Below are positions 4,245 to 55,310 of a stretch of 64,000 bases of DNA, one piece after another (positions within the stretch are counted from its first letter, which is position 1; the number at the start of each line of letters is the position of its first letter). Position numbers and translations under genes: made by a program. Below the pieces are notes generated by a model. The model did no database searches, was not told the DNA's origin, and saw only the letters and a program-made list of their open reading frames with translations. The stretch covers positions 47,254,847 to 47,318,846 of the forward strand of contig OX359248.1 in assembly GCA_947179485.1 (NCBI GenBank). Direction: 5' to 3'. The stretch comes from Allacma fusca. Lineage: Eukaryota > Arthropoda > Collembola > Symphypleona > Sminthuridae.

Positions 4245-5815
4245 ACCTCGATTTTAGCATCGCTTCATTGCGGGAGGTCGTTGCTTTATTCTTTTTGCCA
4301 CAAAATTGCTATTTCGACGAAGTATGGAAAAAAATATTTGGATTTGTTTTTCGACATTCGTATTTTTGTTTATTAAATATTATTGTTAATGTGTACTCAC
4401 AGAGTTTGTAACCCTACTCGTGTACTACAGCTGCATTGTGTAATGCGGTGGAACTGCAAATTCGGAGGAAACATTGTTGTACTTTGTCGGCAGATGTTCG
4501 TACTACTGCTTCTAATTATTATTTCTTAAATGTAACTTTAACGTAAATAATGTGATTATTGTTTTCCACGTTGGCAACTTTGTTGAAATTAGACATATGT
4601 AAAAGGTGGATTAGTCCCCTAATCTTTAAGACATAACTAGGTCGTAATTATGTAATAGTAATGAATTGTTAGAATTAGTAATGCTACTGTTCACACCTTT
4701 TTACTTGCTTGTCATAATAATGTTCTTTCAGAGAGTTGAATAATAGCGATGACCGAGTAATCTTTCTTTGCACCTATTTTCATGTGGCAAATAATATCTA
4801 ATACTAGTTGATAAATTAGATAATGTTATAGAACTACTGGAAAGTCTTTGATACATCAGTTGTTAAGTACCTAGATGTATGTATTTATTTAAAGCTTACC
4901 CCTGTAGTAACCAGGAATATTACCTTAAGCTGATGATATGATTATACGTATCGTAATGCATATATCAGTGTAATTAATTAAATATTGAAATTCCATTAAA
5001 ACTTGAAGATGTGCGTTATATGAAATAGGATCAAATATAAATACTGAATGATATTTTATTTGGTGTATTTCCGTCGGCGTGCGACTGATTTTTTATGTGA
5101 TTCAGTTGGGAATTTAGGATCAAAGCGCCTGATATCTGCAGATGTAATTTATGGAATGAAAACAGATTCTAGCGCCAGGATAAGTCTATTGGTGAAGCTC
5201 TACTCCGAATCAATTAAAACATTATTCTTCAGATTATTTTCTAACACTAAGTTATTAACAGAAACATCGGAATATGCAAGAAATAACTTTAAAGGACACC
5301 TACGAATTGGTTATTACCGAAGAGGGAAGAATACGTCGGTTACAAAAACAATTTTCGAATACAAACTGAACTTGTAGTGTATTTCTTGGAAACTGTTTGA
5401 AGTTCATTTTGCATTGAGTCTCGTAAGTACTTAGCCATTTTTGCTTCTTAAGTAGCGGTAATTCTCTAAATTACTGTTGTGCGTCGAATCAATAATACAA
5501 TAACTACGTGTTGTGCTGTAATATCTACACTACAGTGGCTTCAGTTTACGAATGTAAAGTATTATTTTCACGGTGTTTAAGTGCTATTGTTGTTACGATA
5601 CTCTATCAAGGATTAATAATAAATAACTATTGAAAAATCCCTCCACATCTGATTTCTTATTCATGATTTGGAGTATGGCTGATTAAATTCACATGCTGAA
5701 TGACAACACGCTTAATGCTTCCGTATATAGCAAAACACAGTAGAGTAGTTTTTTTCAGAAAAATTTTATTGAAGGCCTGATGATGAGCCAAATAAAACTC
5801 CATGTTTATTTAAAC
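4245..5815. other. SCAMP 3' UTR and convergent gap to RpS6
   Basis: AT-rich non-coding stretch after the SCAMP stop. The first canonical AATAAA I find on the plus strand is at 5618-5623, so the SCAMP 3' UTR may be about 1.4 kb long. It would end roughly 150 bases from the end of the convergent RpS6 transcript. A 109-codon open frame at 5048-5377 lies inside this stretch but resembles nothing I know. Confidence 0.45.
5765..5770 (-). promoter_or_regulatory. Poly(A) signal of left RpS6 copy
   Basis: AATAAA on the minus strand, about 46 bases past the RpS6 stop codon. It sits in sequence still weakly alignable with the 3' end of the other RpS6 copy. Confidence 0.6.
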
Positions 5816-7285
5816 TTATTTACTCGAAACAGAAGACTTGGATTCCCTAAGAGAGGCAGAACGTCTTCGACGAGCTTCCTGTTGCTTCTTTTCCTTACGT
5901 TCCTTCTGCCTTTGGGCCAACAATTTAGCATATTGGGCAGCTTCGTCCTTAACCTTCTCTGCACGACGGCGTTTCAAAGCAATGCGATGTCTCTTACGCT
6001 GTGTCAAACAAATAAACCAATTAAGATTTGTTCCATTCAAATGCATACATTACATTTGTAACCACTACAGGTCTTTGATAATTTTGACAATTCCTAATAT
6101 CTCAACGGTACACTGAGACCATTTTCATTGTATCAAAAATGGCCTCAAATCAAACACTGAATTTGCTTTACCACACCAATTGAACACTGACGACCAACAA
6201 TAATGGACTCAGTTGCCTGGTTGTGGCCAATACTATTATTTCCATGCAATCCCACCCCACTTTACCTGGAGCATATTAGGAGTAATGAGACGCTGAATCT
6301 TGGGGGCCTTGAACCGTTGCTTCTTGCCCTCCTTTTGGGGAAGTGGCCTCTTAATAACATACTGACGCACATCATCTTCCTTGCCCAAATTGAACAGTTT
6401 ACGGATCTTAGAAGCCCTCTTGGGTCCCAACCGACGGGGGATTTGAACATCGGTCAGTCCGGGGATTTCCTACAATACCCAAAATCAACACATTAGTTCA
6501 TCTAATCACCATAACCAACATCACCTTCATAATACAAACTACTACTACTCCGTGGAACCCACCCCCTTAATCCACACCATATCCCTTAAAATAATCCAAT
6601 CTCATCCAAAATATTACCTGTTCTCCTTTCTTCACAACGACGAGGGATAACGCACTCAAGTTACCATCAACAATGCATCCACGAACAGATTTACGCTTCC
6701 TTTCTCCGGTACGACGGGGTCTGTAGCAGGAATGACCCTTGGATAACAACAAGCGAACACGGGCTGTAAGGTCACACCACATCAAATTATTAATCCACCC
6801 TTCCTTCACACTTCCAACATCTCAAATTCCAACAATTACTCCTTTCCTTCATTACCACACAACCAACCTTCCAAAATTAATTTTAAAAAAAACTTGAACT
6901 CACTATTAGCCAACACTCCTTGTTTCATGGGGAACCCCTGTTTGTCGTTTCCACCGGCAATTCTCAGAACGTATCCTTTCCATTCATCTCCAAGAATGTC
7001 TGCTTCCACTTCAGCTCCCATTCGCTTCTCATAAAATACTCGAAGCTTGTGGTCATCGTGGATCTCAAAAGACTTTTGGGCCCCGGTTGACGGGATGGCC
7101 ACGTTCAGCTGGAAACAAAATCAAACTTTCACATTATAGCAGATGCAACAAGCGGATTTCTTAGAGACCAAGAACTTTTGTCTTCTTCTTTTATTTTTGT
7201 TCTATAAATAATAATAGTAACCATAACGAAGTTACTTTCAGAATGTTTTACTCAAATAATTAAATGTAAAGTTACTTACTTTCAT
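5816..7285 (-). CDS. RpS6: 40S ribosomal protein S6, left copy, complete
   Basis: Five coding exons on the minus strand: 7280-7285 (only ATGAAA), 6904-7108, 6618-6763, 6266-6469 and 5816-5998. They join to 247 residues, the normal length for eS6. Signatures include [48 protein letters not shown] and the basic C-terminal tail [17 protein letters not shown], equivalent to the S6-kinase target region. The product is a small-subunit ribosomal protein on which TOR/S6K signalling converges. A start exon of only two codons followed by GTAAGT is supported by the correct eS6 N-terminus and by the same arrangement in the second copy. That copy lies at 19210-20694 on the opposite strand. By eye, exons 2-4 are identical, and the predicted proteins differ at two places in exon 5 (I/V in HRIALK, V/L in SSVSSK). 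Confidence 0.98.
6115..6146 (-). ncRNA. Possible hairpin in intron 4 of left RpS6
   Basis: Inverted repeat with 12-bp arms around GATACAAT. In RNA the stem holds with wobble pairs (GAGGCCATTTTT against GAAAATGGTCTC). The right RpS6 copy has a perfect 12-bp stem at the same place. It is not a recognisable snoRNA (no clear C/D or H/ACA boxes), and its function is unknown. Confidence 0.35.
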
Positions 7286-7400: not shown

Positions 7401-7639
7401 CACTTTTGAGGGGAACATTCAAATAACTAAGCACTCGCAGCATATAGTTACTTCTTACACAGCAGGCCGGCAAAGCACTCATTAGTGCTCATTACATTCA
7501 GTTTTAGAGCTGTAGGTGGCAGCCCATGCACCAGTTAAAACCTGGAATCTCCGGAGATTTGGCTGTTTGCACTTGAAAAAAAAAGCAAAATAAAGGTAAT
7601 TACAGATAATTGTAAGTACTTCCTGAAAAATCGTTCAGT

Positions 7640-7850
7640 CCCCTTCTGAAGCCTTCTTTGAAGGTTAGCCTTCGAAAGCTGGACATGTCTGCCTTAAACA
7701 TCAAATATGTGGAAAACAATTCATTCGGCGCGTGAAGGGTGCTTTTTCAATTTTTCGATCAATACGCTGATCCCTTCCCTTCATTTCTGCAGAAAGAAAA
7801 GATTTCCTTCCTCGAAGGAAACCTTGATTGAAGGGTACCTCTCTGATTGC
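7640..7850. repeat. Transposon remnant with GAAGG motifs
   Basis: The stretch ending at 7691 (GCCTTCGAAAGCTGGACATGTCTG and the bases before it) closely matches the right terminus of element T5 (16925-16968), in the same orientation. GAAGG/CCTTC motifs continue to about 7845. No matching left end or target duplication was found, so it is called a remnant of a T5-type element. Confidence 0.5.
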
Positions 7851-7919
7851 ATGCGTTTATATGCGAGCTCATTTAATTTTTGGAGGTCAAAGGGATGACC
7901 CAATGTAAAGGCGTGGCCC

Positions 7920-9973
7920 TAGTGTTTCTGTCGGTGCAAGTTTTGGGATTAACCGAACTTGCAATTACAATTATACTTGATAATGCAAGTACTAGTATTG
8001 CCGTAACTGGTACTTGCTAAAATGCGCCAATTAAATTATGCAAATAACCGAAGTTGAACTTGCAATTAGTTCATAAGGTCCTTGCAGTTGGTAAGGCAAT
8101 TGCAAAAACATTTGGATGTAATTGCATCGATAAGTATAATTGCAAGTGCAATTGCAATTTGTAATTGCAAGTTAACTGATATATACACTATAAATCAGCG
8201 AAGAGACAAAATGACGCATTTTTGAATGCTAGCAAGATGATATATGTACGTGCTGTTTCACTCAATTGAACAAAGTGTATTAAATTAAATGTTCTAGATC
8301 AGAGATGTGTAAAATACCTCATTTTTGTTTCAAAAATACTAAATACTTTTAATTTTTTTCTTAACACAAAATACTAAATACTAAATAAGATACCAGCTAC
8401 TAGTTTTCTAAAATACTTAAGTAAAATACATATCGAAGACCGCTCGAAAGATACTTAAGTAGAAAATACTATCTTAAATACTTTAACTTCAGGAAATACA
8501 TCTAATAATTATTGTTTTGGAAATCGAGTACAGAACTTCAAAAATACAAGCTTTTTTTTCATCCGACAACCTAGCTCTACGCGAACTAAAAATTAGTCCT
8601 TCCGGTGGTCCGTCTTAATTAATTAAATTATATTTAATTAATTTAGTTTAATTTAATTTAACAAACTAATTCAATACGATCCCAAGATAAACATTATTTG
8701 CTTACCAAGGGCTTTAAAACATTTGACGTTGATGACAAAGCTTTTATCATCCCACTAGTTTTACTAGCCCTCGCCGTTTTGGTTCCGACTCGGAGGTTCT
8801 TTTCACAAATAATGCCCTGGCGACCACACTTCCATTGTCTAGCTCAATTACTCGAAAATAATTACCGTCCAGAATTAAGGGTAAAGGTCACACCGATGAT
8901 GACATTTTGAAATGCTTTCTGAACTACCGATTTCTTATAATTTATAATTAAAGCATGCTAACGAGAAGGACCATTCTCTCTGACTTTGCAGTGGATAGTC
9001 TGAATTTACCCTGATTAATATTTCCCGTACGTACGACGTATGTAAATCGCTAAAAAGGTTGTTCCTGTACTTAAGTAATGCTAACGGTAGGAAATAGTTT
9101 GACAATAAGTACGATTGTGGCAATTTCAAAATGTTGAGTACTTAAGTATTTTGATAAAGTATCTTATTTTAAATACTTATACTTACTATTAATGGCTAAA
9201 AATAAAATACTAAATACTTACCAGCATCGTATTTCGTAAATACCAAGATACAAAATACCCGGTCGACCCCAGTAGGTTTGAAATACAAGATACAAGATAC
9301 GTATTTTGTATTTTAGATAGTATTTTGTATTTAAGTATTTCAAGTACTACCAATCTCTGTTCTAGATGCAATGTATAATGATTCGAATAAAGTGTAGTGA
9401 TGTAAATATAGCCTTTGTTTAAGCCTTCCAAGGCTAAAATATTGTAAAATTTCATTCTTTAACATCTTTACAATCCTTAAAATATTTGGCCTATTTTCTT
9501 TAATTTTGTGTAAATTGAAACATTTTGATGCTAACCAAAAATTTACTTCCATCAATTTGCTTACTCACCGATGAAATTGTACAGCCAGTACAGTAATTAC
9601 ACTCGTTGAGACAATACTCGTGATTGTTATGTACATTAGTTAATAGAGCGGAATGACTTATTGAGGCATTTTGCGAAATTTTGCGCTCAAATTAGAAACG
9701 ATTGCAAGTTGCAATTAACTTGTAAGTATTTTTTAAATTGCAAATTTTTGCAGTGCAAGCACTTGTAATTGCAATTGAATTTCTTGCAATTTCAGTTGTA
9801 CTTAACAGGTAATTGCGAGTATTTATTGCGTTTGTAATTGCAATTTAAGTACACAGAAATGGCACTTCCACCGACAATTGCAATACCTTGGTGTAAAATA
9901 ACCGCAATTGAACCGAACTTGCAAGTGCAATTAGTAATTATTGCGGTTAACTTGCAATTGACAAGAAACACTA
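7920..9973. mobile_element. T1: hAT-like non-coding element, TTGCAA arrays, host of T2
   Basis: The left end is TAGTGTTTCTGTC. The right end, read inverted, is TAGTGTTTCTTGTC. It is flanked by 8-bp copies CGTGGCCC (7912-7919) and CATGGCCC (9974-9981), one mismatch apart. Inside both ends lie long degenerate arrays of TTGCAATTGCAAG/ACTTGCAAT motifs (about 7935-8180 and 9700-9970). The 8-bp duplication and YARNG-type terminus are the usual signature of the hAT superfamily. There is no transposase, so it would need one in trans. About 1 kb of its length is the inserted element T2. Confidence 0.8.
8300..9359. mobile_element. T2: hAT-like non-coding element nested in T1, AAATAC arrays
   Basis: Flanked by perfect 8-bp copies TTCTAGAT (8292-8299 and 9360-9367). 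Ends are CAGAGATGTG on the left and, inverted, CAGAGATTGG on the right. Both subterminal regions are degenerate AAATACT/AAGTATTT arrays (about 8315-8515 and 9125-9350). The core is AT-rich with no meaningful coding frame. It was inserted into T1 after T1 arrived, since T1 reads on each side of it. Confidence 0.85.
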
Positions 9974-9981
9974 CATGGCCC

Positions 9982-10705
9982 GCAGGTCATTTTCTAACCC
10001 AACCTGAGTCTTACCCGCAAATACGTAACCCCAATCTCCGCCCGACCGGAAAGTCGATCTCTGAAACATTGGCCAGGCCCGAGGCGAGGACATTTTGGCA
10101 ATATTTGTTTTAGGCCCACACTAGAACGGATGAGCCTGCTGGGTTTCAATTGACACGGCCCAACCCAGCTGGAGGACCCTCGCGGGAGCCCGTATATGTT
10201 TTATAACTTACCACATTTATGCAAAATTATTAAAGAGCTTTCACCAGGAAGATCGAACAAAAACGAGTAGTACAACTTGTAACAAAATGAGCTGTTACAG
10301 AGGGAAATTTGAGCATCTCAAAGTTAATCAAATTCAGAAATTAAGACATAATACACCAATTGTAAGATATTTTCTGAATATGATCATTTAATTAATAAAA
10401 TTAATGAATGCACGCTTTTGAGTTCAGAGCACAAACTTTCGAAACGTTTTACAAGTCACAGCCATGTTTAGTGTTTAGAAGGAAAAATGAAATTCTAATG
10501 GAAAAATCCCAAACGTCGTTGGTTGAAATTTGAACGTTTTGCTGGCCCCGCACGTATTTAGAACCAGGCCGAACTCACCCGCAACCCGCACTACGTGCAT
10601 AAAGTACTACCCGACCAGCCCCATTGAAATACGATAACAACCCAGTCCGAACCGGAACTTGGAACACAAAAAAGCATTAAGCCCGAATCCGCCCATAACC
10701 CATTT
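9982..10705. repeat. Paired CCCG-rich patches around an AT-rich core, ends unresolved
   Basis: Two GC-rich patches of degenerate CCCGCA/GGCCC/CCCGACC motifs (about 9976-10195 and 10545-10705) flank an AT-rich middle. This is the same architecture as the delimited elements around it, so it is probably another non-autonomous transposon, partly split by T1. I could not find convincing inverted termini or a target duplication. Confidence 0.45.
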
Positions 10706-10708
10706 TTT

Positions 10709-10957
10709 AAATTTAAAACTAGAATTTGAACTACGAAAAATTTAAACTGGAATTTGAACTACGAAAAATTTAAACTGGAATTTGAACTACGAAAAATTTA
10801 AACTGGAATTTGAACTACGAAAAATTTAAACTGGAATTTGAACTACGAAAAATTTAAACTGGAATTTGAACTACGAAAAATTTAAACTGGAATTTGAACT
10901 ACGAAAAATTTAAACTGGAATTTGAACTACGAAAAATTTAAACTGGAATTTGAACTC
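10709..10957. repeat. 28-bp minisatellite, about 9 copies
   Basis: Near-perfect head-to-tail repeat of a 28-bp unit beginning GAACTACGAAAAATTTAAAC. The first copy has two differences and the others are essentially identical by eye, suggesting recent expansion or homogenisation. It abuts the CCCG-rich patch. Confidence 0.95.
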
Positions 10958-12331
10958 GAATGTAACATCATCTCGTGTTTGAACATTGAACTTTTAAGTA
11001 GTGTTACTTGAAACTCGAGTTTGCACTCAAGCGTGACTCGTTTATCCAATTTGATCTTATTCTTACATTTCACACACGTATTTGACCAGAAATCATTTAA
11101 AATCGAATCTTTTTCCGTGCACTTCAAACTTAAATAATGAGGTTTAGGATTACAATTTTGGGGATTTTATGGATTGTTACAAAGATTTGCCATAACAATA
11201 AATATTTTTTCTTTACTTCACTCTTGACCCTTATTTTCAGGTTTTGAGACTTATTCGGTATAGAACTTACAAAATTTACTAAAATAAATCACCATAAAAT
11301 TTTGCGGCAAGCACAGCTTCACGGCAAAAAATTATGACCCTGGAAAAATGACAAGATCCTTCTTTTCCGCATCTTTCTAACTTTTCTTCACACTTCATGA
11401 AGCTTAATTTCTTAAACATTTCTCCGTGGTTTTTTATGGCTACGTCCACAATTCTCGACGTAGGGACCTATCAAATAGCTCGTTGGAAAGCCCATGCCCT
11501 ACAAACCAGTGTCAGAACATTTTCTGAAAATCGAGACATGAAGATATTTTGGAAAAATCAACATTGCTTGACGTCGGTATGTGGTCTCCATGGGGGGACA
11601 AATGTCTGCGGTCACCGTGCAAGTAAGTTGATTATTATTTGGGGGTTTGGTTACAGCTACCTCGTAATATTACTTATGTTTCATAAATCCTTGAAGATGA
11701 TCACGTCCTATATTTCATGTTGCAATAAATCATTTTTAGACGTTCGAACTTATTTCAGCGCTCACGCGTTCACAAAAATCTCCAACGTTCAGCATAGCTT
11801 TGTTCAAAACATTCACTTCATTGTAATCATATATTAGTTGTGTAGATGGGAAAATGAGTGTGTGATGTATTGAGCAGCCAGAAGTGGGAAAATGCAAGGT
11901 GAAACTGTTGTGAGTCATTTGGGCAAGATACAAAATAAAATACTTTCCTTCCAACAAAAAGCGAAAATATGAAATAAAAATACCGTATTTGAAATACGAA
12001 ATACATATTGAAAATACTCTCGAATATATCTCAGAGTAATTACATATCTGAGATGTATCTAAAGTTTATTCTCCCAAAGTATTTTGTATAATTCGGCCAA
12101 ATAATGCGATATTTAAAATTAAATCAATTTACGTAAGGTAACTGCATGTTATTAGACTTTAGAGTTGTGCATTTGTGTATTAAAGTAAATTAACATGGCC
12201 GTACGTACAGAATATTTTTCCTTTAAATAAATAATCTTATAACTCTTGGGCAATGTATTTATATTCGCGTCATTAAATTAGCTAGCTTTATAGTCAGATA
12301 CATTGAATTTTATGTATTTATACAGTAATTT
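10958..12331. other. Gene-free AT-rich stretch with an AAATAC patch
   Basis: No recognisable gene. The longest open frame (11397-11837, plus) has no family resemblance that I can see. Between about 11925 and 12050 lies a patch of AAATAC/GTATTT motifs like those of T2, ending near CATATCTG at 12051. It may be a decayed T2-type element, but no convincing ends were found. Confidence 0.4.
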
Positions 12332-12339
12332 CTTCAAAC

Positions 12340-12781
12340 TAGTGTTTCTGTTCGGTATCGGGAATTCCCGAGGTTCCGGTTCGGTTGCGGGTCAACGATT
12401 TAAAGAACAGTTAAATTTCGGTCCGGTTTCGGGTCACGGGTTAAAGAACCGTTACATTTCGGTCCGGTTTCGGGTACAAAAATTAAAACCGAAAGTGTTC
12501 GGGAAAGGCTTGTTAAAGCTGTAGTTTTGGATGAAAACGCGAAACATGCAATTGTCAAGCATCTGTCAACTATCTTTTGAAAACGCGACAAATTTTTCTA
12601 CCGGTTCGGAAACGAACCGGAACCGGTTCGGGAACCGCTTTTATTTTCCGGATCGGTTCCGGGAAGGCAAAAATGTCCCCGACTCGAATATATCGATTCC
12701 GGTTTCGGGAACAGAAATGGGATTTTTTTCGGTTCGGGAAAACGATTCCGGTCGAGTCCATGGTACCGTTCAGAAACACTA
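12340..12781. mobile_element. T3: short hAT-like element, CCGGTTCGG arrays
   Basis: A 442-bp element. The left end is TAGTGTTTCTGTTCGGTA and the inverted right end is TAGTGTTTCTGAACGGTA. It is flanked by perfect 8-bp copies CTTCAAAC (12332-12339 and 12782-12789). Almost all of it consists of degenerate TTCGGGT/CCGGTTCGG motifs. Its first ten bases equal those of T1, yet its internal motif is entirely different. The right-hand CTTCAAAC is shared with element T4. Confidence 0.85.
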
Positions 12782-12789
12782 CTTCAAAC

Positions 12790-14386
12790 CAGTGCTCGGA
12801 CTGGGTACAGAAACCGTGTACCCGTACCCATACCCGTACCCGAATATTGGGTACTACAAAATGGTGTACCTATACCCGTACCCATACCCGAGTACCCGGG
12901 TAAATTATTTCAGTACCCGTACCCGTACCTGAAAATACAATGTAGTACCTGTACCCACATTTTACCCGTACCCGTAATGTACCCAAAACCTGTACCCGTA
13001 CCCGAGTATCTATTGTGTGTACCCGGGTATTACTCGGGTACTGGAAGTTTGGCCGATTTGAAATCCCCGACGACATTAGCCTGCCCAGCTGAAAAATTTT
13101 AATTTGTCAATTTTTTGACCTCCATTAAAAGTGTCCTGGATTTTGGGAATTTTCCCTAGGCGTTAAAGACATCCTATTTGAATTTTTTGAAAACATTATT
13201 TAAGGCATTTTGTGATTTTTTTAATAAACACTGACGAAATTCAAATCCTACTACCCCAAAATAATAACTTGCTGAATGAAATGAAATGTGTTCTCGCTAA
13301 TTGGAATTGGGACGGATTCTTTAATACTAAACTCTCCATAACTTGCTTTTCAACTTGGAGAACAAGAAACAATTTTTTTTCCGGCTAATCGTTTACGGCT
13401 AATCGAACTTTGTGTATAGAAAATGTTATACGGAAAAATTGAGTTGATCATAATTTTTCCAAGTCAAACTTTGCGGTTTCAGGAAATAAATGTGGGAGGC
13501 AATATTGAATATTCATTTTATATTACAGCTTTATAAAACAAACATTCGTAAACTGTCTCTCACATTTATGAAGCCCGAGACGGAGATTTTCGAAAAATGC
13601 AGGCAAAATAGGACTAAAATGCAACCCCATGGAAGTTTTGAACGTCAAGTTCAGATGTCTGTCAAGTTCTTTTAACAACAAAATTATCAAGATTAATCAA
13701 AGGGACTGGAATATAAATATTGCGTACAAGGAATACCCAGAATTGACAATGCTCAAATTGCCTGCATAAAATGCCTCGGCGTTTTCATTTGAGCAACCCT
13801 GGGTACTTATAACGTTAAGAAATGGGTCTGCTAATAAATGTATATTTATTCCGATCTTATCTCGTAATACGTCTTCAAATAATTGTAATGTTACGCTCCC
13901 AATGAAGCTAATTAAATATAATCCCAAGAACCTCCAACTTTGAATTCTTCGTTGATGAGCTTCACTATTTAAGTCGATAAACACATGATTTCACTACCAC
14001 GTAATCATAAATGAGACGAAGCCACTTGGCTCTGTCACTAACGCAAGTATCTGTATACTAAGAAATAAGCAACTCCACGGTTGGTAGGTCTTATTTTTAG
14101 CCATAGTATATAATCAATCCCATCAGGAATCCTTGAAGTTACCCAAAAATACTCGGGTACAGGTATTTTGCATAGTGATACCCGTACCCATTGGGTACTA
14201 GCCGATTGCCACTGAGTGAGTTCCCATACCCGTACCCGTACCTGTACCCACTTTATTGACTAAAATCAAGAGTACCCGGGTAGTACCCGGCTACTTGCGA
14301 GTACGCAACTTCTGTACCCGGGTAGTACCCATACCTGTACCCGTACCCATTTACCCGAGTATTACCCGTACCCAGTCCGAGCACTG
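12790..14386. mobile_element. T4: hAT-like element, TACCCG arrays
   Basis: A 1597-bp element with inverted termini CAGTGCTCGGACTGGGTAC (19 bp, perfect by eye). It is flanked by CTTCAAAC at 12782-12789 and 14387-14394. Subterminal arrays of TACCCG/TACCCA run at about 12818-13040 and 14150-14375, both C-rich on the plus strand, so they lie in direct rather than mirrored orientation. The AT-rich core contains a 95-codon minus-strand frame (13697-13984) that I do not recognise and no transposase motif. It is the same family as T7 in opposite orientation. Confidence 0.9.
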
Positions 14387-14498
14387 CTTCAAACCCGTCA
14401 AACATGTTTCAAAATCTCGTTTAAAAATGTTTTAAATTTGTGCTTTTACATTAAAAATATTTATTTGAGCATGTTTTAGAGACGACCTTAACAATTGC

Positions 14499-14761
14499 CA
14501 GAGTCATGTATTTTAAAACTATAATTTGTATTTGAAATACTGACTGGGTAAATTTTATAAGATAAATAAATACAAAATACTATCACGTTCGTAATCTTCA
14601 AAATACGAAATATAAAATACAGTAGACATGTTGGTGCTGACAAAATACGAAATACAAAATACCTTAAACAATTTACGGCTAGAAAAATACCAAATACGAA
14701 ATACTAAATGTATTTCAAATACTATTTCAATTACAATATTTCAAAATATTCCACACCTCTG
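14499..14761. mobile_element. T8: probable short T2-type element, eroded
   Basis: A 263-bp patch filled with AAATAC/GTATTT motifs. It begins CAGAGTCATG and ends, inverted, CAGAGGTGTGG, close to the T2 termini. The flanking octamers ACAATTGC and GTAATTAG match only at four central positions, so the target duplication is weak. The call rests mainly on motif content and termini. Confidence 0.5.
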
Positions 14762-15067
14762 GTAATTAGTAACAACTCTACTCATCAACCTATTGATTTG
14801 GGAAAAACCTTCCATTTTTCGTACTTTATTACTTCATTATGTACTTAAAATCTAACCCTGTGAGTGATTATTCAGTAACTACAAAGTTTTGCCAACTCAA
14901 ATAATAGAGAACTTGCATTCTGGAGGCACAAAATATTAGATATTGTTTCCTTGCGGAGCGGAATGGCACTAGTATTTTTAGGGGCGACGTGAAATGAAGT
15001 TCCCTTTTGTTATTGTTTTGTATCCGATTGTGTGCCAATCTGCGTGTCTGTTTAATAACGGTCGAAC

Positions 15068-16968
15068 CAGAAATGTACAAATGAAATTGCCTTCCTTCAA
15101 ACCTTCGAAGGTAATTTTTTGAAAAAACGCATTCCTTCATCCTTCTACAGATATTAAAGGAAGCCTTCAAAATATTTTGCCTTCCTTCAGCCCTATTTAT
15201 AAATTTAAAGCCTCAAGCCTTCAGCCTTCCTTCCTATTCAGCCTTCATAACACGAAATACCATAGCAATGCATTTAAATAACCCTTTTGCAGGTAAAACA
15301 CCTGAAAATCAGCGATACAATTTACTGAATTGAGTTCGTTTATTAAAATCAGAAGCAATGAAGTAAGTCTCATTGTGCATATAACTGTACATTTGTGCAT
15401 TTTTAGTGTTTTAGTACACTCATTGTGGTATTTGTAACTATCTATTGTAGTTCATTCCATGCGCGAAGCCTTGTAAGGAGCACCATACATGGGCACCCTC
15501 ACGAGGGATTGAGGGATGCCTCGCCCTCTCCCTCGTCCTCGCCCTCACAAACTGCGAGGGTGATGGCGAGTACACGTTGATTTTAGGCGCCCTCATGAAC
15601 ATGAGGGAGAGGACCTATGAATAGGATGTGAACGAAAGAGGGGGAGGCAGAGTACATATGTAAGCCCTCATGACCTTCTCTTACCTTAATCGTTATGCGA
15701 AAATCATACATATACATATTTTTCTGTAGCAAGACCAACTTCATACCGCCTTAGGTACCTGGTTTATGGCCCTGTGCAAAAATCCTAGTTTTAATTTTTA
15801 AAAGTAAAAGGTCCTCTTGTTTAGGTTAAAATTTCTCATATTAAACTCCAGAAAAAAATTTCATTTTAGGATGTCGGGGAGACATGATCATTTATAAACA
15901 AGGGCACCTGGGCTTTATGATTAATGCTGTTTTCAGACCCTACTATTGAGTATTACTGGTATGAGGTTATAGAACCTATTTGTGACTAATCTTTATTAAC
16001 CAAAGACGTAGAAAACAGCTTTGATCAGTAATAGTCATTTTCTGAGCTACTGAATCGATTATAATGAAGAATTATTATCATAGACCAACAATTTTTTTTA
16101 TAACAAAATATAGTAGTTTGACTACTGAATGTTTTCCATTTTGGCGACAATTAAAATGTAAGGAAGATATGCACTTTGTACCGATGAATTAGAATTTTAA
16201 ACTTGTTTTTCACGTTATTTTCAGGACAAAATCGAAAGAACATTGTAAATTTTTCAAGTTTTTTATACTTTTTACAATTATGTCAATCACGAAACCTAGT
16301 ATGTACCTGTACCCTAATACCTGTGTAAAACCTGCATCAATAAAGGGCACTATTTTGAATACAGTAGTTTATTCCAACAACAATTTTTTAAAAATTTGTT
16401 TTGAACGCTAGGTTGTAGAAAATTTTATAAACTTTGTAAGCTATCCAAAAGTTCCGTACGTTCAGAACTGGGGGGAATGTCGACACATATTGAAGTTGTC
16501 ATATTTTAACCAAGTGTCAGCGAAAAAATTATTTGAAGGCAAAGGTAATGTAGGAAATTGTAGGGGGATTATTTACGTGTAATATAAAATAACGAGGGCC
16601 CTCATGAGTGCGAGGGAGAGGGATGTGTTTTAAAAGTAGCCCCTCACGAGGTCGAGGGCGAGGACAACCCGTAACGTGTTGCTCGATTGATGACGAGGGA
16701 GAGTGCGAGCAGGTTATATTCCATCCCTCGCACAAAGAGGGAGAGGGGGAGAAAAAAGCCCATCTATGAGGAGCACAGGCCGACAGGCCTACTTTAAATA
16801 CTTCCTTCCTTCGCCCTTCGTTTTCTGTTAATACTAGGAAGGCCTTCTTCAGCCTTCCCGAATTAATTCAGCCATCCCGCCTTCCCTTCTCAACTCTCTG
16901 GAAAATTGATATTCCGCCTGCAATGAAGCCTTCATTGAAGGCTAGCCTTCGAAGGCTGGACATGTCTG
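15068..16968. mobile_element. T5: hAT-like element, CCTTCAG arrays, host of T6
   Basis: Flanked by perfect 8-bp copies GGTCGAAC (15060-15067 and 16969-16976). The left end is CAGAAATGTAC and the inverted right end CAGACATGTCC. Arrays of degenerate CCTTC/GAAGG motifs lie at about 15088-15245 and 16800-16960. Without its insertion T6 the element is only about 0.6 kb. A near-identical right terminus occurs at 7649-7691, showing a dispersed family. Confidence 0.85.
15484..16768. mobile_element. T6: hAT-like element nested in T5, CCCTCG arrays
   Basis: A 1285-bp element flanked by perfect 8-bp copies AGGAGCAC (15476-15483 and 16769-16776). Ends are CATACATGGGC and, inverted, CATAGATGGGC. Subterminal arrays of degenerate CCCTCG/GAGGGCGAGG motifs lie at about 15495-15670 and 16590-16755, with an AT-rich core between them. 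No coding capacity seen. It lies inside T5 and is therefore younger than it. Confidence 0.85.
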
Positions 16969-17013
16969 GGTCGAACCAATGTCATCACGCAACTCAAACT
17001 TTGTACAGTCAAC

Positions 17014-18325
17014 CAGTGCTCGGCACGGGTATGGGTAATACTCGGGTAAACGGGTATGGGTACGGGTATGGGTACTACCCGGGTACGGATTTTGTGTACC
17101 CGAACAATTCCGGGTACTACCCGGGTACACTTTGGTCGGCTCAAAATTTCGGGTACGGATACGGGTATGGGTACGGGTACAAGGATTTCAAAATGGGTAT
17201 ATACCCACCGGGTACGGGTACAAGGGTGTCATTTACCCGTACCCGCGACCATTGTACCCGAGTATTTGGATATGTTGAGATTTGATACATTTTGATGAAT
17301 TTTATGAAAATAATGGAACTTCCGTTGGAAAATTCTGTCGGTGTTTTTAGTAATTCTGAATACATATAGCTTATTGTTAATACCCTTTTAACCTTACAAC
17401 ATGCAGTAACTGTATTTCAGACTGTGTTGCTAAAATATGTATTTATATCTATAATAATTATATATTTTTATGAAAACAGGTTTTAGGAAGAATAATTATT
17501 AATAAACAGACGAGGAATAATATCAAAATAGAAGTGGAGAACAGGATTCAACGAAATTTTATACAAAACGTCTTCATAATGTAGTATTTTGTCACTAATT
17601 GCATAAATAGTCTGATTGACACGTATGCACATGATACTTCATTAGCCACAATGAATACAATTTAAAAATTAGAGTTCCGATGAGTTGGATGGCAAGATAT
17701 TTTTTGTAGTTGGTAGTTGATTAGGAAAAGGCGGATATTTGTAACAAGATATTAATGAGTTACATGTACTTAGAGCTACTGAGGTGAGAAAATTAATGTA
17801 AAAGGCCGAATAAATCAAGAAGTGAAAAATCGAGTCGCCAAGTCCCAAGCCAAAAATGCATGTACATATGGACTGGGTGCTATAAAATACTTCGCCCATC
17901 AGCCCATAAACAATCAAATGGGGATAATTTTACTTCTAATCAAAAACGCTCTACTCTTCAATAAAATATATAATGTCAAATACCTCTCTAGCTAGTCAAA
18001 ATTACCCACTCAGGTGTCATACATTATTACATATAACGTACTATGTATTACATTAAAACATAATCTGGATAAAGTACCCGGGTGCGAGTACGGGTACGAC
18101 ACTGAGATACCCGAGTATGGGTACAATTTTCGAGTATTTTCGGGTACGGGTACAATGCGGGTACAGGTACATGGATTGAGATAACATTGCGGGTACGGGT
18201 ACGAAAAATTTGTACCCGGATATTCGGGTATGGGTACGGGTATAGATACCAGTTATTGAAATACCCGCACTTCGGGTACGGATACGGGTACGGGTACCGA
18301 TTTTTCGTACCCGTGCCGAGCACTG
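17014..18325. mobile_element. T7: hAT-like element, GGGTAC arrays
   Basis: A 1312-bp element with inverted termini CAGTGCTCGGCACGGGTA, flanked by perfect 8-bp copies CAGTCAAC (17006-17013 and 18326-18333). Arrays of GGGTAC/GGGTAT lie at about 17030-17240 and 18070-18305, both G-rich on the plus strand. It is the same family as T4, inverted relative to it. Runs such as GGGTATGGGTACGGGTATGG (from 17052) satisfy the G-quadruplex pattern. Frames across these arrays translate to repetitive GYGYG or YPYPY strings, which are artefacts of the repeat. Confidence 0.9.
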
Positions 18326-19209: not shown

Positions 19210-20694
19210 ATGAAGGTAAGTCAATATTTTTCATAAATATTCCAATAATTAATTGTTGATTTAGTTTTTATTCCAACATTTGTAATTATAGTAGAATATT
19301 ATCAAATGAGGTTCATTTCTGAAGAGGCATGCTCACGTATATATACAGATACTGCATATTGTAAGTTATACAACGTAATATGAATTTTGTTCTCAGCTGA
19401 ACGTGGCCATCCCGTCAACCGGGGCCCAAAAGTCTTTTGAGATCCACGATGACCACAAGCTTCGAGTATTTTATGAGAAGCGAATGGGAGCTGAAGTGGA
19501 AGCAGACATTCTTGGAGATGAATGGAAAGGATACGTTCTGAGAATTGCCGGTGGAAACGACAAACAGGGGTTCCCCATGAAACAAGGAGTGTTGGCTAAT
19601 AGTGAGTTCAAGTTTTTTTTTTTAAATTAATTTTGGAAGGTTGGTTGTGTGGTAATGAAGGAAAGGAGTAATTGTTGGAATTTGAGATGTTTGAAGTGTG
19701 AAGGAAGGATGGATTAATAATTTGATGTGGTGTGACCTTACAGCCCGTGTTCGCTTGTTGTTATCCAAGGGTCATTCCTGCTACAGACCCCGTCGTACCG
19801 GAGAAAGGAAGCGTAAATCTGTTCGTGGATGCATTGTTGATGGTAACTTGAGTGCGTTATCCCTCGTCGTTGTGAAGAAAGGAGAACAGGTAATATTTTG
19901 GATGAGATTGGATTATTTTAAGGGATATGGTGTGGATTAAGGGGGTGGGTTCGGCTGAGCAGTGATTTGTATTATGAGGGTGATGTTGGTTATGGTGATT
20001 AGATGAACCAATGTGTTGATTTTGGGTATTGTAGGAAATCCCCGGACTGACCGATGTTCAAATCCCCCGTCGGTTGGGACCCAAGAGGGCTTCTAAGATC
20101 CGTAAACTGTTCAATTTGGGCAAGGAAGATGATGTGCGTCAGTATGTTATTAAGAGGCCACTTCCCCAAAAGGAGGGCAAGAAGCAACGGTTCAAGGCCC
20201 CCAAGATTCAGCGTCTCATTACTCCTAATATGCTCCAGGTAAAGTGGGGTGGGATTGTATGGAAATAATAGTATTGTCCACAACCAGGCAGCTGAGTCCA
20301 TAGTTGGTCGTCAGTGTTCAATTGGTGTGGTAAAGTAAATTCAGTGTTGGTTTTGAGACCATTTTTGATACAATAAAAATGGTCTCAGCGCAACGTTGAG
20401 ATATTAGTGATTGCAAAATTGTCAAGGACTTGTTTTCTTTTGTAGTGGTTTCAATTGCAATGCATGCATTTGCATGGAATGAATCATAATTGGTTTATTT
20501 GTTTGACACAGCGTAAGAGACATCGCGTTGCTTTGAAACGCCGTCGTGCAGAGAAGGTTAAGGACGAAGCTGCCCAATATGCTAAATTGTTGGCCCAAAG
20601 GCAGAAGGAACGTAAGGAAAAGAAGCAACAGGAAGCTCGTCGAAGACGTTCTGCCTCACTTAGAGAATCCAAGTCTTCTCTTTCGAGTAAATAA
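19210..20694 (+). CDS. RpS6: 40S ribosomal protein S6, right copy, complete
   Basis: Five exons: 19210-19215 (ATGAAG), 19397-19601, 19744-19889, 20035-20238 and 20512-20694, giving 247 residues and all intact. The exon lengths equal those of the left copy exactly. Exons 2-4 appear identical in nucleotide sequence, and introns 2 and 3 differ at only a few positions. Intron 4 and exon 5 carry more changes (residue changes HRVALK and SSLSSK). Exon 1 uses AAG instead of AAA, and intron 1 and the upstream region are essentially unrelated. There is no sign of pseudogenisation: splice sites, frame, stop and AATAAA are all present. The pattern of an identical core with diverged flanks points to gene conversion between inverted paralogues rather than a simple recent copy. 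Confidence 0.97.
20355..20386 (+). ncRNA. Possible hairpin in intron 4 of right RpS6
   Basis: Perfect 12-bp inverted repeat GAGACCATTTTT / AAAAATGGTCTC around the loop GATACAAT. The same structure is kept by wobble pairs in the left copy, in an intron that otherwise shows scattered differences. Confidence 0.4.
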
Positions 20695-20739
20695 ATTTAA
20701 ATAAACACGAAGTTTTATTGGGGTCGTCATCATGCCGGC

Positions 20740-20745
20740 AATAAA
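20740..20745 (+). promoter_or_regulatory. Poly(A) signal of right RpS6 copy
   Basis: AATAAA about 45 bases after the stop codon, at the same distance as in the left copy. Another AATAAA overlaps the stop codon itself. Confidence 0.6.
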
Positions 20746-22480
20746 GTTGTTCTGATAAAAATGATGCCCTTACCTTGTATTTATTTTGAAATATAAGTCA
20801 TGTCTACTGTATTTTCGTTCATTTTTATGAAAATTGTTTTACTGGATAATTTCGCTACATATATTGCGACTCTGAAGGAATTTTGTTGTGCAAACGTTTG
20901 CTACTGGAGATAGGGGTGGATGGGCCAAAGTGTTAAAGGTGACGACAGTTACACCGACACGTGTACACCACGTACTCAACTATAACATTTCCTTGTAGGG
21001 GTGTCTTGGAATTATGCATGTTTAGTATTGCTAATGTCGAACAGCAACCCAGCGTCGATACTGTACATTAAATATCCGCAGCATAAATGCTGATTTCAAA
21101 TTTTTTATTATTTCACTATCTGATTGTAGAAATACAAAATCTTCTAGCTCTTGGTTAGATGAACTTGAACTTGAAGTTAAGAAATATTGTCTACCAAATG
21201 TGTGATTTACTTCAGTGGGGGGGGGGGAAACTCATACCGATTTTAAAAATTTATCATACTCTCACGCTGTGTATGAAACGAGTGGGCTCCTAATACATCA
21301 AATAAGTACTTTCATGCATCATCAGTAGAATACTACTTATTTGGCAATGTCAAATTTTGGAATACAACAAGACTACTCCAAAACTTCAAATCATTAATAA
21401 TCAAGTTATAGATGATATTTTCGTTACAATTTAAGCGTAAACGAAAATCTTCAAATATTTGGATTTTAAAAAATTAGGTTTAACATACTCCATCTCATTT
21501 GGGATTTATAGAAGGTATACCGTCAGTTTATAAATACATATTAGAAGCGTATTTTAAAGGCAGGTTAACCTCTAAACCTTAAAACAAATTAAAACTATTG
21601 TAACTTCAAGAAATATTATTTGGGAAAAATATTCTAATTTTCTCAAGCTAAATTAATCCAAGAACCTGTCTTTGTAATTAATTCTTTACTTAAACATTTT
21701 CATTTATAGGTTACTATTTTTCTACAGTTCTTTTTCGTAAATTCCCCTTAAAAAGGGGCAACAAAATTTTTCACATTTGTAGATTAAAAGTATTCTAACA
21801 AAAAAAATAATCCCTCAGAAATGCAATTTTGAGGGGTTTTAATATTTTTGGTACATTTTGCTCATTTACACTTTATCCTTAGGCCTGCTGAGCAGGTTAC
21901 TTGCCAATCGTTGAGTCCAAAGTATTTTTGACGTGTGTGTATGGAATCTGTGGAATATGACAGAACAGCTGCATTACAACTGTATTTAAATGCGCCCAAG
22001 TTTCGAAAGTTACGTTAATATATAGTAGTGGTTAATTTTTTTACTGATAATCCTCCTGTGCATTTACAGTGATTTAAATATTAAGACCTTATAGTCTGTA
22101 TATGTAGGGATTTAATATTACAGATGTGATTAGTTCTTGAAGAAGTTTGAATCTAATTTTAGTTGGCAGACACCGGGCTCATTGAAGAATGTGGCACGAC
22201 TAGACATAAGTACTGTAATGGTTTCTTGTCAAACCAGATATTATGTGCAAATATACAAACTTTAACCAAAGTATCCTTTAACTTATAAGTGAAGTGGACT
22301 CCGGAGTTCTCGCTTGTGTAATAATTCAATTAAATAGAAATCCGACAATACCGTCATGCTCAAAATTGTTTACGGATTTTAATAATTGTTCGGGGAAACA
22401 TCATCTTTAGAAAAAAGTTACTTTTTGCGTAATTTAAATTCAGTTGTAGTAGTAGTTGTGTATTTGTACGGGGTTGCAAA
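20746..22480. other. Gap between RpS6 and AP-3 beta
   Basis: AT-rich with a short poly-G run near 21220. No gene, transposon ends or tandem repeat recognised. Its right end carries the AP-3 beta promoter. Confidence 0.5.
22440..22445 (+). promoter_or_regulatory. Possible arthropod-type initiator of AP-3 beta
   Basis: TCAGTT matches the arthropod initiator pattern TCAKTY and lies about 40 bases upstream of the AP-3 beta start codon. One such hexamer is weak evidence, and no TATA box is evident. Confidence 0.25.
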
Positions 22481-25400
22481 ATGGAGAGGTCATTTTCGGT
22501 CAACGATGGTCTGGACTACTCAGGGGATGCTTCTGTAGGATCATTTTTCAGCTCTGATTACAAAAGGTAAGGTTCATTAGGACATTCAGCCTAAAATAAA
22601 TTAGTATTATTAGTGTTAGGAAAGTATGTCATTGGGATTTATAATATTTATTTATTTTGTTATTATTGTTGTTGTTAGTGTGTTTTAGTATTTGAAATAT
22701 GATGGTGAGGGTAATTATGACTGGCGGTGGCATTATGATTCGGGACTATGTTAACATTATGGTATTAATATTTTGGTATTACTTTAGGCATGATGATCTG
22801 AAGCAGATGCTCGACAGCAATAGGGATAACCTGAAGCTGGAGGCTATGAAAAGAATCATTGGCGTGAGTATTTTAAAGTTTTAGAGTTAGATATTTTGTA
22901 TAAAATTATTTTTTTAATGTAGTTCAGAATGATGATAGTTAAATAACCTGTTATGTAATGTTTTGCGGAATGTTATGAGGAATGTGTTTGAAAGCATTGG
23001 GATATTTTGATATTTTTCAGATGGTGGCTAAAGGTCGAGATGCTTCAGAATTGTTTCCGGCAGTGGTCAAGAACGTTGTTTCAAAGAATACGGAAGTGAA
23101 GAAATTGGTGTACGTGTATTTAATGAGGTATGCGGAAGAGCAGCAGGATTTGGCTTTACTGTCAATATCAACATTTCAGAGAGCTTTGAAGGATCCAAAT
23201 CAGTTGATACGAGGAAGTGCCTTACGAGTCTTGTCCAGCATTCGGGTTCCGGTCATTGTGCCAATTGTGATGCTGGCAATTCGGGATGCCTCTGCGGATA
23301 TGAGCCCGTATGTGCGTAAAACTGCGGCTCATGCTGTTCCGAAGTTGTACAGGTATGTATTTAATGGATAATTGTAAAACAACGTATGCACAGTTGTAGA
23401 CTACTCGATTGATGGTCCAGAGTTCACAACAAGATTTGTGAGATGGAATGCTGATTTTCTTGTTGATAAACTTGGTTTTTATAAAATTAGTTTGGACCCG
23501 GAACAGAAGGATGAATTAATTCAAATTCTCGACAAGCTTCTGGCTGACAAAACCACTTTAGTGGTGGGGTCTGCAGTCATGGCATTTGAGGAGGTGTGAT
23601 TCCCTTGAAGAAATTAATTATTCAAGTTTTCAAAAATGGAGAATTTTATATGTTGTATTTTTGCATGTAGGTCTGTCCAGAGAGGATTGACATGATTCAT
23701 AAAAACTACAGGAAATTGTGCGCTCTGCTTGTGGATGTTGATGAATGGGGCCAAGTTGTCATTCTCAATATGTTAACTCGATATGCGCGGTCACAGTTTG
23801 TGGACCCCAATATTGGAGTAAGATTTCAATTTTAGTAGTGGTCGTTTAGTTTGTTTGTACTTTAAATACACAGCAACACAGCTACGTAAAAGTTAATGGA
23901 TCTATTTTTTTTACACTAATTATCTTTGAGTTACTGTTGTGTCAGTTATTACATTAAAATCTTATTGTGATGAATGCAATTTTCATATGTACTGTCAGGA
24001 TTTAACGATTGATGGTGAAGACAAACCCTTTTATGAAGATGAGGATGGAGACGAGGAAGAAGATGAAACTGTGAAAAATGCAAGGGAAGCTGCTAAAAAT
24101 AAGCCTCAAATGGATCCGGACCACCGGCTTCTACTAAAAAATTCACGTCCTTTGTTGCAGAGTCGCAATGCCTCAGTAATTCCTACGATGAATTCAATAA
24201 ATTATTTACATTCATGCAAGGGACGTAATTTTGAGTGGAAAATGTGCATTCAAATTTTTGCTCCCTCAAATATTTCTTTTGCTGGACGTTTTCATGCTGT
24301 CAAATTCATTTATTTTATTCGATTGTCTACCAGGTCGTTATGGCTGTGGTACAGCTGTACAATCATGTCGCGCCAAAGACGGAGGTCCCTATAGTGGTGA
24401 AAGCCCTAATAAGACTGCTGCGATCGCATGTAGAGGTTCAAGCTGTGGTACTAACCTGTATTGCCGCTATGTCAACTGACAGAAAGGTAAGATATTCTCT
24501 TGAAAATTGGTTTAGTGTTATTCTACATCATTGTAAAAATATTATTATAATTAACTGTTTTTTCTTCATCTATGAAACCTTCAGTTATCTATTCGTTACT
24601 TGAGTTGCTTAGCATAAATATACCGTAAAATCTGTATTACGATTCCCGATGTTATTGCCTTACATTTATTTTGGGGTGATGTAGCGCACTATCTGTGTGC
24701 CATATTTTGACATTTTCATATTCTTTATTAATATTAATGGCTGACGTGTAAGTTTAGCCTGTGTCAGTAGTAATACATAGCAACAGTGCAGAACTATAGA
24801 AGTAAGACAAATTCAACTCCAAAATTTAAAGTCCCACATTTTTTAATGCCATGTGTCCTATCTGGTCTATATTTATTTTTTGTTCAGTGTCGTCGCTGTT
24901 GTGATTACGACGATGTCTGCTTTTAGCAAAGTTACAACATCAGAGCGTATCGCACCAGCTGTGCAATTTAATGGAATTGCTGAAATCAAAAGTAACCTAC
25001 CTTTTCCCTTTTATAAGTGTCGGGTGTCCAATATATAAAGCTATTTTGTATTATGGGTGGGCCATCGTATTCTTTTTACATGGTATTTAAAGTACTTAAT
25101 GGGAAAAGACAACGTTTTGGAAGTGAAGATTCAAAATGAACGTTTTACGGTATTTTTATAAGCAATTATTGTAAGTTCTATTGCATCTTTTATACATATT
25201 CAAGTTTGAATGCAATTTTGTAACATAGTATAGGTATGTAGTTATATATGTATATACGTATATATTAAGAAATAATTACTGACGATTATATTCATTTTAA
25301 TTTCGGAATTGCTTTTGATGTCTTCAATGGATGAACTGGTCGTGCTGAATGCGGGGTTGATTGTTGCATCCAAATCCGCTTGCATTTATTTCTCCCCATT

Positions 25401-54243: not shown

Positions 54244-55310
54244 CCCCAAATTTCTACGACATTATTTTGAATTTTAGCTGCAAGTTTCCAAGACATTTTC
54301 TCAAAATGTTTAAGAAATGCAATTGCAAATTTTCTAGGAATTTTCTAAAAATCGAGTTTGCAGAGTTTCAAGACATTTTCTAGAAATTTAATTACACATG
54401 TTGCTGTAAACTTTTAATACATTTTTAGTAACTCAGTTGCAAATTTAGCTCCGAATTTTCAAGGAAAGTTTTAGTAACTGAGTCGGAAATTGTCTAGAAA
54501 TTTAATTTTGAATTTAGTTAGAAATTTTCTAAAGGCTTGGTTGTAAAATGCAATCACAAATTTTCTAGATATTGGTTTCAAATTTGGTTGTAAATTTTCT
54601 AAAAATTTGATATTAAATTTAGAATCAAATTTTTTGTAAATATTTATTTTAAATTTAGTAGCAAATGCTCTACACATCTGATTACAAATTTGGCTCGTCA
54701 ATTGAGGCTATCATTTTCTAAAATCCGGACCAATTGAAGTTGGAATTTAGAGGGTTTGAATATTTTTGAACATTAATTGAAGTGCATCGAAGGATGAGAA
54801 AGGGTTTTCAGCACACCCTGTGCATATAAATGTGTATCCTTGCCTGACAATACAGTAAGTGCAAAAGGGGCTCCAGTGCACTTGTAAATGATCGATGATT
54901 GTGTGCATGTGGGTGTTTGAGTGTGTGTGTGTGTGCAATGCTGCAATGTAACTGCACGATCTGCAATTTACTCAAGCATTTCCTTAATAATTTCCCATTG
55001 AAAAAAAAACACTATCCATTTGCGTCCCCCTCGCCGTTTTTACTCATTATTTATGCATTAAAAAGAATTACTGTCTTTAGGATCTATCGTAGACCGGTAG
55101 GGAAAATGTTTACATGGATGTACATATGTTCCAGATTTGTAAGTGCATTATGTATATAATTACAAAATGTACGTATATTCAACATTAATGCATCCTGTTG
55201 GCAACTTCCTATGTAAATAAATGATACTGTTTTCCCCCAAAAGAGCCGTTCTAAAATAAATTCCAAACGAAAAGTTCCTCTCTTAAATTTTTGAAGGTAC
55301 TTTACCCTTT

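Follow-up and report, generated by a model that had tools for sequence, protein, structure and literature searches.

Subterminal repeats have been called a defining feature of hAT transposons (PMC4890040), and short repeats of this sort have served to distinguish hAT elements (PMC4298943). The BED finger of Hermes binds subterminal words, with an octamer and asymmetric left and right ends described (PMC10368747), and the Herves transposase binds words of its own (PMC3143072). Ac/Ds (PMC3260210) and Tgf2 (PMC4890040) are further cases of subterminal repeats. The arms needed measure about 220 bp in Hermes, 200 bp in Ac, and 200 and 150 bp in Tol2 (PMC10368747). Maize Ds includes non-autonomous elements that keep their arms around foreign cores (PMC3260210). 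We analyzed 64,000 bp of the genome of the collembolan Allacma fusca (C12:47254847-47318846, hereafter the window), in which positions 7920-18325 hold a cluster of nested elements with arrays of short words at their ends. This cluster is best read as a nest of non-autonomous hAT transposons, with the word arrays acting as docking sites for transposases (probability roughly 0.93).

The elements are listed below in window coordinates; no strand is assigned except for the lone arm.

7920..9973, element A, a non-autonomous hAT element with tip TAGTGTTTCT, TTGCAA arrays, and AACCG words; B is inserted inside it
7912..7919 and 9974-9981, target duplication of A, left CGTGGCCC and right CATGGCCC, matching at 7/8 bases
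8300..9359, element B, within A, with a Tol2-like left tip CAGAGATGTG, AAATAC and AAGTA arrays, and duplication TTCTAGAT (8/8)
12340..12781, element C, with tip TAGTGTTTCT, CGGTTC/AACCGG arrays, and duplication CTTCAAAC (8/8)
12790..14386, element D, with tip CAGTGCTCGG, GGGTAC arrays, and duplication CTTCAAAC (8/8), common with the right copy of C
12790..13043, left-type arm of D, homologous to G 18072-18325, reversed
14178..14386, right-type arm of D, homologous to G 17014-17221, reversed
15068..16968, element E, with tips CAGAAATGTA/CAGACATGTC, CCTTC arrays, and duplication GGTCGAAC (8/8); F is inserted inside it
15484..16768, element F, within E, with tip CATA(C/G)ATGGG, CCCTC arrays, and duplication AGGAGCAC (8/8)
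17014..18325, element G, with tip CAGTGCTCGG, GGGTAC arrays, a core unrelated to that of D, and duplication CAGTCAAC (8/8)
11879..14761, element H, the eighth, with right tip CAGAGGTGTGG at 14761 and an unsure left border; it encloses C and D
7601..7691, minus strand, a lone E-type right arm that ends with CAGACATGTCC at 7691; its left end was not found

The original prediction, made from the letters of the window, described seven inserts that carry hAT-type tips and are flanked by 8-bp target duplications, an array of each element's own word just inside both tips, and non-coding cores. All three parts stood: the duplications are exact in six elements and match at 7/8 in A, the words lie inside the borders as counted below, and the cluster translated in six frames, with stops as X, matched no Pfam family up to E = 1. 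As a positive control, the same type of search was run on two frames of 20800-31204 and recovered AP-3 beta exons in one. Pairs of an 8-bp duplication and 10-bp inverted tips between 7500 and 18800 numbered 5, 2, and 8 at 0, 1, and 2 tip mismatches, some of them being array self-matches; 200 dinucleotide shuffles gave mean counts of 0.01, 0.08, and 0.94. The sequence CTTCAAAC is present three times at the C/D junctions (12332-12339, 12782-12789, and 14387-14394). One of these two elements is inserted exactly in the target duplication of the other, and a single 8-bp site has been used twice by elements with different tips and words. H was absent from the earlier list; its AAATAC arrays lie near 11930-12060 and 14520-14750, and a target duplication was looked for and not found. 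Tips of hAT elements follow the rule YARNG, to which A, B, C, D, G, and H conform. The elements are non-coding and, apart from the shorter C (12340-12781), 1-2 kb long; for C, D, F, and G the search gave tens of copies or more that have their ends in common. Such a length exceeds the usual size of miniature inverted-repeat transposable elements.

The density of own words is 16-41 per kb inside each of the seven elements versus 0.4-3.0 in the rest of the window. Own-word counts are 6-19 in the first 200 bp inside a border and 0-1 in the 200 bp beyond it. A blind scan of the window for 5- and 6-mers found dense arrays at the arms of the seven elements, at H, and near 7691 at the E-like end. The remaining sequence yielded simple repeats, minisatellites, and a few isolated words (among them TCCGA near 27751, GTGCA near 54751, and AGGCC near 59876). 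Words are not wholly private to one element. AACCG, the word of C, occurs five times in the arms of A, always within 126 bp of the tip (P = 0.0095 left, 2.8e-4 right), and the two arms of B are enriched in AAGTA, a word of the Tol2 type. The words of both arms run significantly on the same strand in D, E, G, and H and are mixed in B; the polarity was also tested in C and F and was not significant, and none can be defined for the palindromic word of A. In our own reading of PMC10368747, the words of both ends of Hermes run the same way along the element, as they do in D, E, G, and H. The same-direction words prompted the idea that one array had been split by insertion of a core; the homologous left- and right-type arms of D and G speak against it.

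Copies were sought in the whole assembly (392.7 Mb, 91 contigs), with the best 40 places scored per query and the window copy counted among them, so that the counts are lower bounds. For A the query covered its first 1081 bases (7920-9000), hence its left part only; besides its own match, 14 rows match A from base 1 to the insertion point of B. With the same query, 25 places match B, 14 from its first base and 11 beginning no more than 8 bases from it. C spans 1-442 in 35/40 places, D starts at base 1 in 39/40, and F spans 1-1285 in 39/40, two of them at 100% identity besides the window copy. G starts at base 1 in 39/40 places and ends at 1311-1312 in all 40, and its other copies are 95-98% identical. 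Forty copies of B, D, and F were fetched, and both ends could be located in 37; of these, 31 have 8/8 duplicated bases and three have 7/8, and all seven fetched copies of B show 7-8 of 8. The check for genomic copies with the same ends thus came out as the prediction would have it for A (left part), B, C, D, F, and G, with duplications of at least 7 bases in 34/37 copies of B, D, and F. Among 39 duplications (34 from copies and five from the window), T stands at position 2 in 20 and A at position 7 in 22. T at position 2 and A at position 7 are the target preference of hAT transposons. Two copies of F, at C8:66765790 (L179) and C8:181490 (L180), are identical to the window F over 1285 bp and have different duplications, a sign of very recent movement. 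Among the checked loci from searches of viral_contigs (15, 10, 0, and 94 loci) and genome_contigs (0) with the cluster queries, none had a tip plus an array.

D and G allow arms and cores to be compared. Alignment from the tip extends over 253 bp in the left-type arm (score 205) and 208 bp in the right-type arm (score 170), versus maximum scores of 88 and 80 in 200 block shuffles, and a comparison of the two cores found no similarity. These arm lengths agree with the arm needs of Hermes, Ac, and Tol2 (PMC10368747). The aligned arms are identical at 378/390 word positions versus 326/491 other positions; the difference of 0.31 compares with a maximum of 0.19 in 900 neutral simulations run with the same aligner. 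Within the D family, with words defined on the majority base of the copies, 28/3467 word positions and 67/4031 other positions changed (ratio 2.1, P = 9e-4). Control words in D (ACTGG, 0/170 changed; AATAC, 6/255) gave nothing significant.

hAT transposases abound in the genome: 150 places were scored, drawn from 860 candidates, and all 150 were above the cut-off for PF05699, the hAT dimerisation domain. Fifty of the 150 were inspected, 30 of them together with 1.5 kb of flank at either side and 20 with the next 1 kb downstream, and the blind scan found at least one enriched word downstream in 38/50, some of these being AT-rich or outside the tip of the element. In L154 and L155, hAT transposase exons are followed by CCTTC arrays and the tips CAGAGGTGT and CAGAGATGT. 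On their other side lie the second tips and arrays, and the two complete elements, C8:69412115-69415905 and C8:55033231-55037436, have transposase exons between CCTTC arms, both tips, and a duplication at both ends (CCTCCCAG and CTTCCGCT, respectively). In alignments that start at base 0, the left arm of E matches the 3' arms of L172, L154, and L155, and its right arm matches the 5' arms belonging to L154 and L155 (each at 0/200 shuffles). On the basis of these arm alignments and the two elements with both ends and duplications, E is a non-coding relative of a transposase-bearing hAT family and has kept distinct 5' and 3' arms. The right arm of F aligns to the 3' arms of L161 and L177, with tip CATAGATGCAC and GAGGG words, at equal distance from the tip (0/200 shuffles); the match spans 101-178 from the tip in both aligned arms (148-178 in the case of L177). 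F thus appears linked to transposase-bearing elements more weakly than E, by a 3' arm at one end only. In L158, L159, and L160, which are nearly identical, the region upstream of the transposase domain holds a D/G-type end complete with its array, and the flank, ATTACAAT, is the same in all three; they may represent a hAT element that carried an older insertion and itself multiplied.

In the mechanism that we propose, each element would need only two arms of roughly 170-260 bp. The short tip would be the place of strand cutting and joining, and the word cluster behind it would be recognized by a matching transposase, encoded elsewhere in the genome, through the BED zinc finger at its N terminus. 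The many words of an arm would hold several transposase dimers in one ring, with the core as filler, and A, B, C, and D/G would have partner transposases of their own. The arrays are most likely transposase-binding sites, which are a known hAT feature. A very improbable alternative is that they are satellite or minisatellite DNA, with unrelated elements assembled into or from it and no role in transposition. Tandem units of 41-42 bp reported by Tandem Repeats Finder in some arms (C, H) would suit such an origin, as would the transposase-bearing E-type element L154, in which one arm is a plain tandem repeat. We rejected it on the grounds that words end at the tips, that the D/G arms are colinear with words better kept than spacers, and that transposase-bearing elements have the same word at both ends.

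Several observations weigh against reading the cluster as hAT elements with transposase docking sites. No partner for A, B, C, or D/G was found among the 50/150 inspected transposase places, 20 of them viewed on one side. The tips of E and F break the YARNG rule at one position; the transposase-bearing relatives of E and F carry similar tips (CAGAGGTGT, CAGAGATGT, and CATAGATGCAC). The neutral simulations had identities of 0.78-0.83 and 17-25 gaps, and the real D/G pair has 0.775 and 39 gaps. Conservation of words within families is small in D and falls short of significance in F (P = 0.24) and in B (P = 0.89), a weak contrast that is expected if most copies no longer move. Finally, three of the 37 copies of B, D, and F have no duplication of 7 or more bases. 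The predicted hAT membership, with arrays as subterminal transposase sites, is nonetheless borne out by the copies, the duplications, and the transposase-bearing relatives of E and F. As for a relative that bears a hAT transposase domain between matching arms, the search succeeded for E (two elements, both ends), less fully for F (3' arm), and for none of A, B, C, and D/G in the inspected places.

Among described elements, Tol2 and Tgf2 come close to B and H. The right tip of H equals the first nine bases, CAGAGGTGT, of the Tol2/Tgf2 ends (PMC4818426, PMC4890040). The left tip of B agrees at 8/10 bases and its right tip at fewer than 7, and B is enriched in AAGTA words. With a 50-base Tgf2 end, 18/2000 random segments score as high as the left end of B and 41/2000 as high as the right end of H; for the right end of B, where AAGTACTTAAGTA aligns to AAATACTTAAATA, the figure is 234/2000, which is not significant. 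In this comparison of ends, the Tol2-like features are split: H has the 9/9 tip without AAGTA enrichment, and B has AAGTA words with the 8/10 left tip. Unlike Tol2 and Tgf2, B and H are non-coding and carry mainly AAATAC words. In maize Ds2 and Ds-l4 the tip is kept, in Ds2 together with an arm of about 200 bp that has AAACGG words, and the core is unrelated filler (PMC3260210). The cluster differs from maize Ac/Ds in its words and in holding several families with different words side by side. Buster1 and Buster2 have family-specific subterminal tandem words, TGGGTCGCG and TGCGGCTC (PMC4298943).

Related transposases beside different arrays are informative on the turnover of words. Arrays were assigned to transposases by adjacency. 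For the tips of L150, L161/L177, L162, L163, and L199, support comes from the point at which homology between copies ends, and those of L152, L156, L169, L171, L172, and L213 were read by eye. Reading by eye, in place of the blind scan, also gave the words of L161, L162, and L163. In a tree of 25 transposase C-termini (support as ultrafast bootstrap/SH-like approximate likelihood ratio test), support had not fully settled, 4/22 inner branches were starred, and L199, L213, L164, and L212 were flagged as long. The tree groups L150 (CTCTA), L152 (ACTAC), and L169 (CGTTA; 89/98), L162 (AGGAAGG) with L156 (AAGGC; 93/98), L161 (GAGGG) with L163, whose word is weak (100/99), the three CCTTC carriers (94/97), and L212 (CGGTTCGG) with L171/L206 (CGGATAGG; 99/97). 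L169, with CGTTA words, and L172, with CCTTC words, have the same tip CAGAGATGCGCA, and A and C have ten tip bases in common with different main words. From such comparisons, it seems that between families the words change more quickly than the tips, yet they were stable in the one pair tested within a type (D/G). L205 has a GAGTAC array downstream of a hAT transposase domain. The words GAGTAC (L205), GGGTAC (D/G), AAATAC (B/H), and AAGTAC (Tol2) form a series that suggests a chain of one-step changes.

The common tips of A and C, and those of B, H, E, and F, could instead have converged on hAT tip rules, in which case they would say nothing on array turnover. We consider this unlikely. The tips do obey short common rules, the comparison covers 10 bases only, and the tips of B, E, and F are alike at 7-8 of 10 bases. 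Against convergence, none of the 1263 YARNG-fitting 10-mers of the window outside the cluster equals TAGTGTTTCT, A and C also have AACCG words in common, and the transposase tree unites carriers of different words. Parts of the original prediction need correction. Its claim that the A and C arrays are unrelated fails on AACCG, which is enriched in both, and its five terminus types may reduce to about three classes by tip similarity. Independence of arrays and termini holds at the level of families, where related transposases have different words and similar tips. The description of the arrays as an extreme and fast-evolving form held only in part: related transposases have different words, yet in the one pair tested (D/G arms of 253 and 208 bp) words are better kept than spacers, A has a word in common with C, and family-specific subterminal words are the usual hAT state (PMC4298943, PMC4890040). 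Beyond PMC4298943, no paper on word turnover against tips was found in the literature searched, in which subscription journals are thinly covered. The elements belong to a known kind; what raises their interest is that one genome offers a set of transposases paired with arrays and that unrelated words have a spacing in common. The choice of words by the BED finger, and word number and layout, are known in detail for few elements. Here, a natural series is available in which transposases of known relationship stand beside different arrays while tips change less, so that a recognition code might be read by comparison.

Arms of the window with unrelated words have a repeat lag of about 42 bp, which weakens once the strongest arms are removed, and lags 12 and 6 (word steps) are slightly above it. 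The lag was first noticed in the window arms and only then tested on 19 further arms of other families with other words, where it recurs and is individually clear in 10/19. These 19 arms were hand-picked from the 50/150 transposase places, with limits set partly by eye; left out were near-identical copies, the L154 3' arm (a plain tandem repeat), and arrays such as L151, L157, L170, L195, L207, and L209. Echoes of the lag appear at 83-84 across all 35 arms and at 126 in the 19, in which lags 11 and 31 are also raised. Helical phasing at 10.4 bp was sought in the arms and gave no clear period (periodogram 2.5 vs 10.6 near 42).

A tentative proposal, to which we give somewhat less than even odds, is that, throughout the hAT families of the genome, the layout is fixed and the word can vary freely. 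Word clusters would recur every ~42 bp (about four helical turns), a spacing that the transposase ring would need by its geometry; word and BED finger would co-evolve on a fixed grid, and mixed arrays (A with AACCG, B with AAGTA) would be steps of turnover. That the spacing is a by-product of array growth by units of typical length, or a relic of a single ancestral 42-bp repeat, falls only just short of an even chance. This origin would account for the tandem units of 41-42 bp that Tandem Repeats Finder reports in some arms (C_L, H_R), the drop of the window signal without the strongest arms, and the nine of 19 further arms without an individual signal. It accounts less readily for the recurrence of the lag in further families whose arms carry different words and for the echoes at 83-84 and 126. 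The available texts describe no common spacing across families for Buster1/Buster2 (PMC4298943) and no ~42-bp grid for Hermes, whose word AAG(T/C) is shorter than the words here (PMC10368747). No paper on a common ~42-bp spacing was found in the literature searched; subscription journals are thinly covered there, so its absence from print is unproven. If set by the complex, the spacing is a structural prediction open to existing transposase assays.

The window contains genes for SCAMP, AP-3 beta, and a glycosyl hydrolase 30, and the cluster sits between the SCAMP and AP-3 beta exons. An open frame of 101 aa within a flanking 1.4-kb repeat had no Pfam match. This repeat forms an inverted pair (5749-7121 and 19384-20761, 94.7% identical) that brackets the whole cluster. 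Beside A, a weak CCCGC/AACCC array at 9974-10720 is perhaps an older hAT element that received the insertion of A. A 28-bp minisatellite with nine near-perfect copies occupies 10709-10960.

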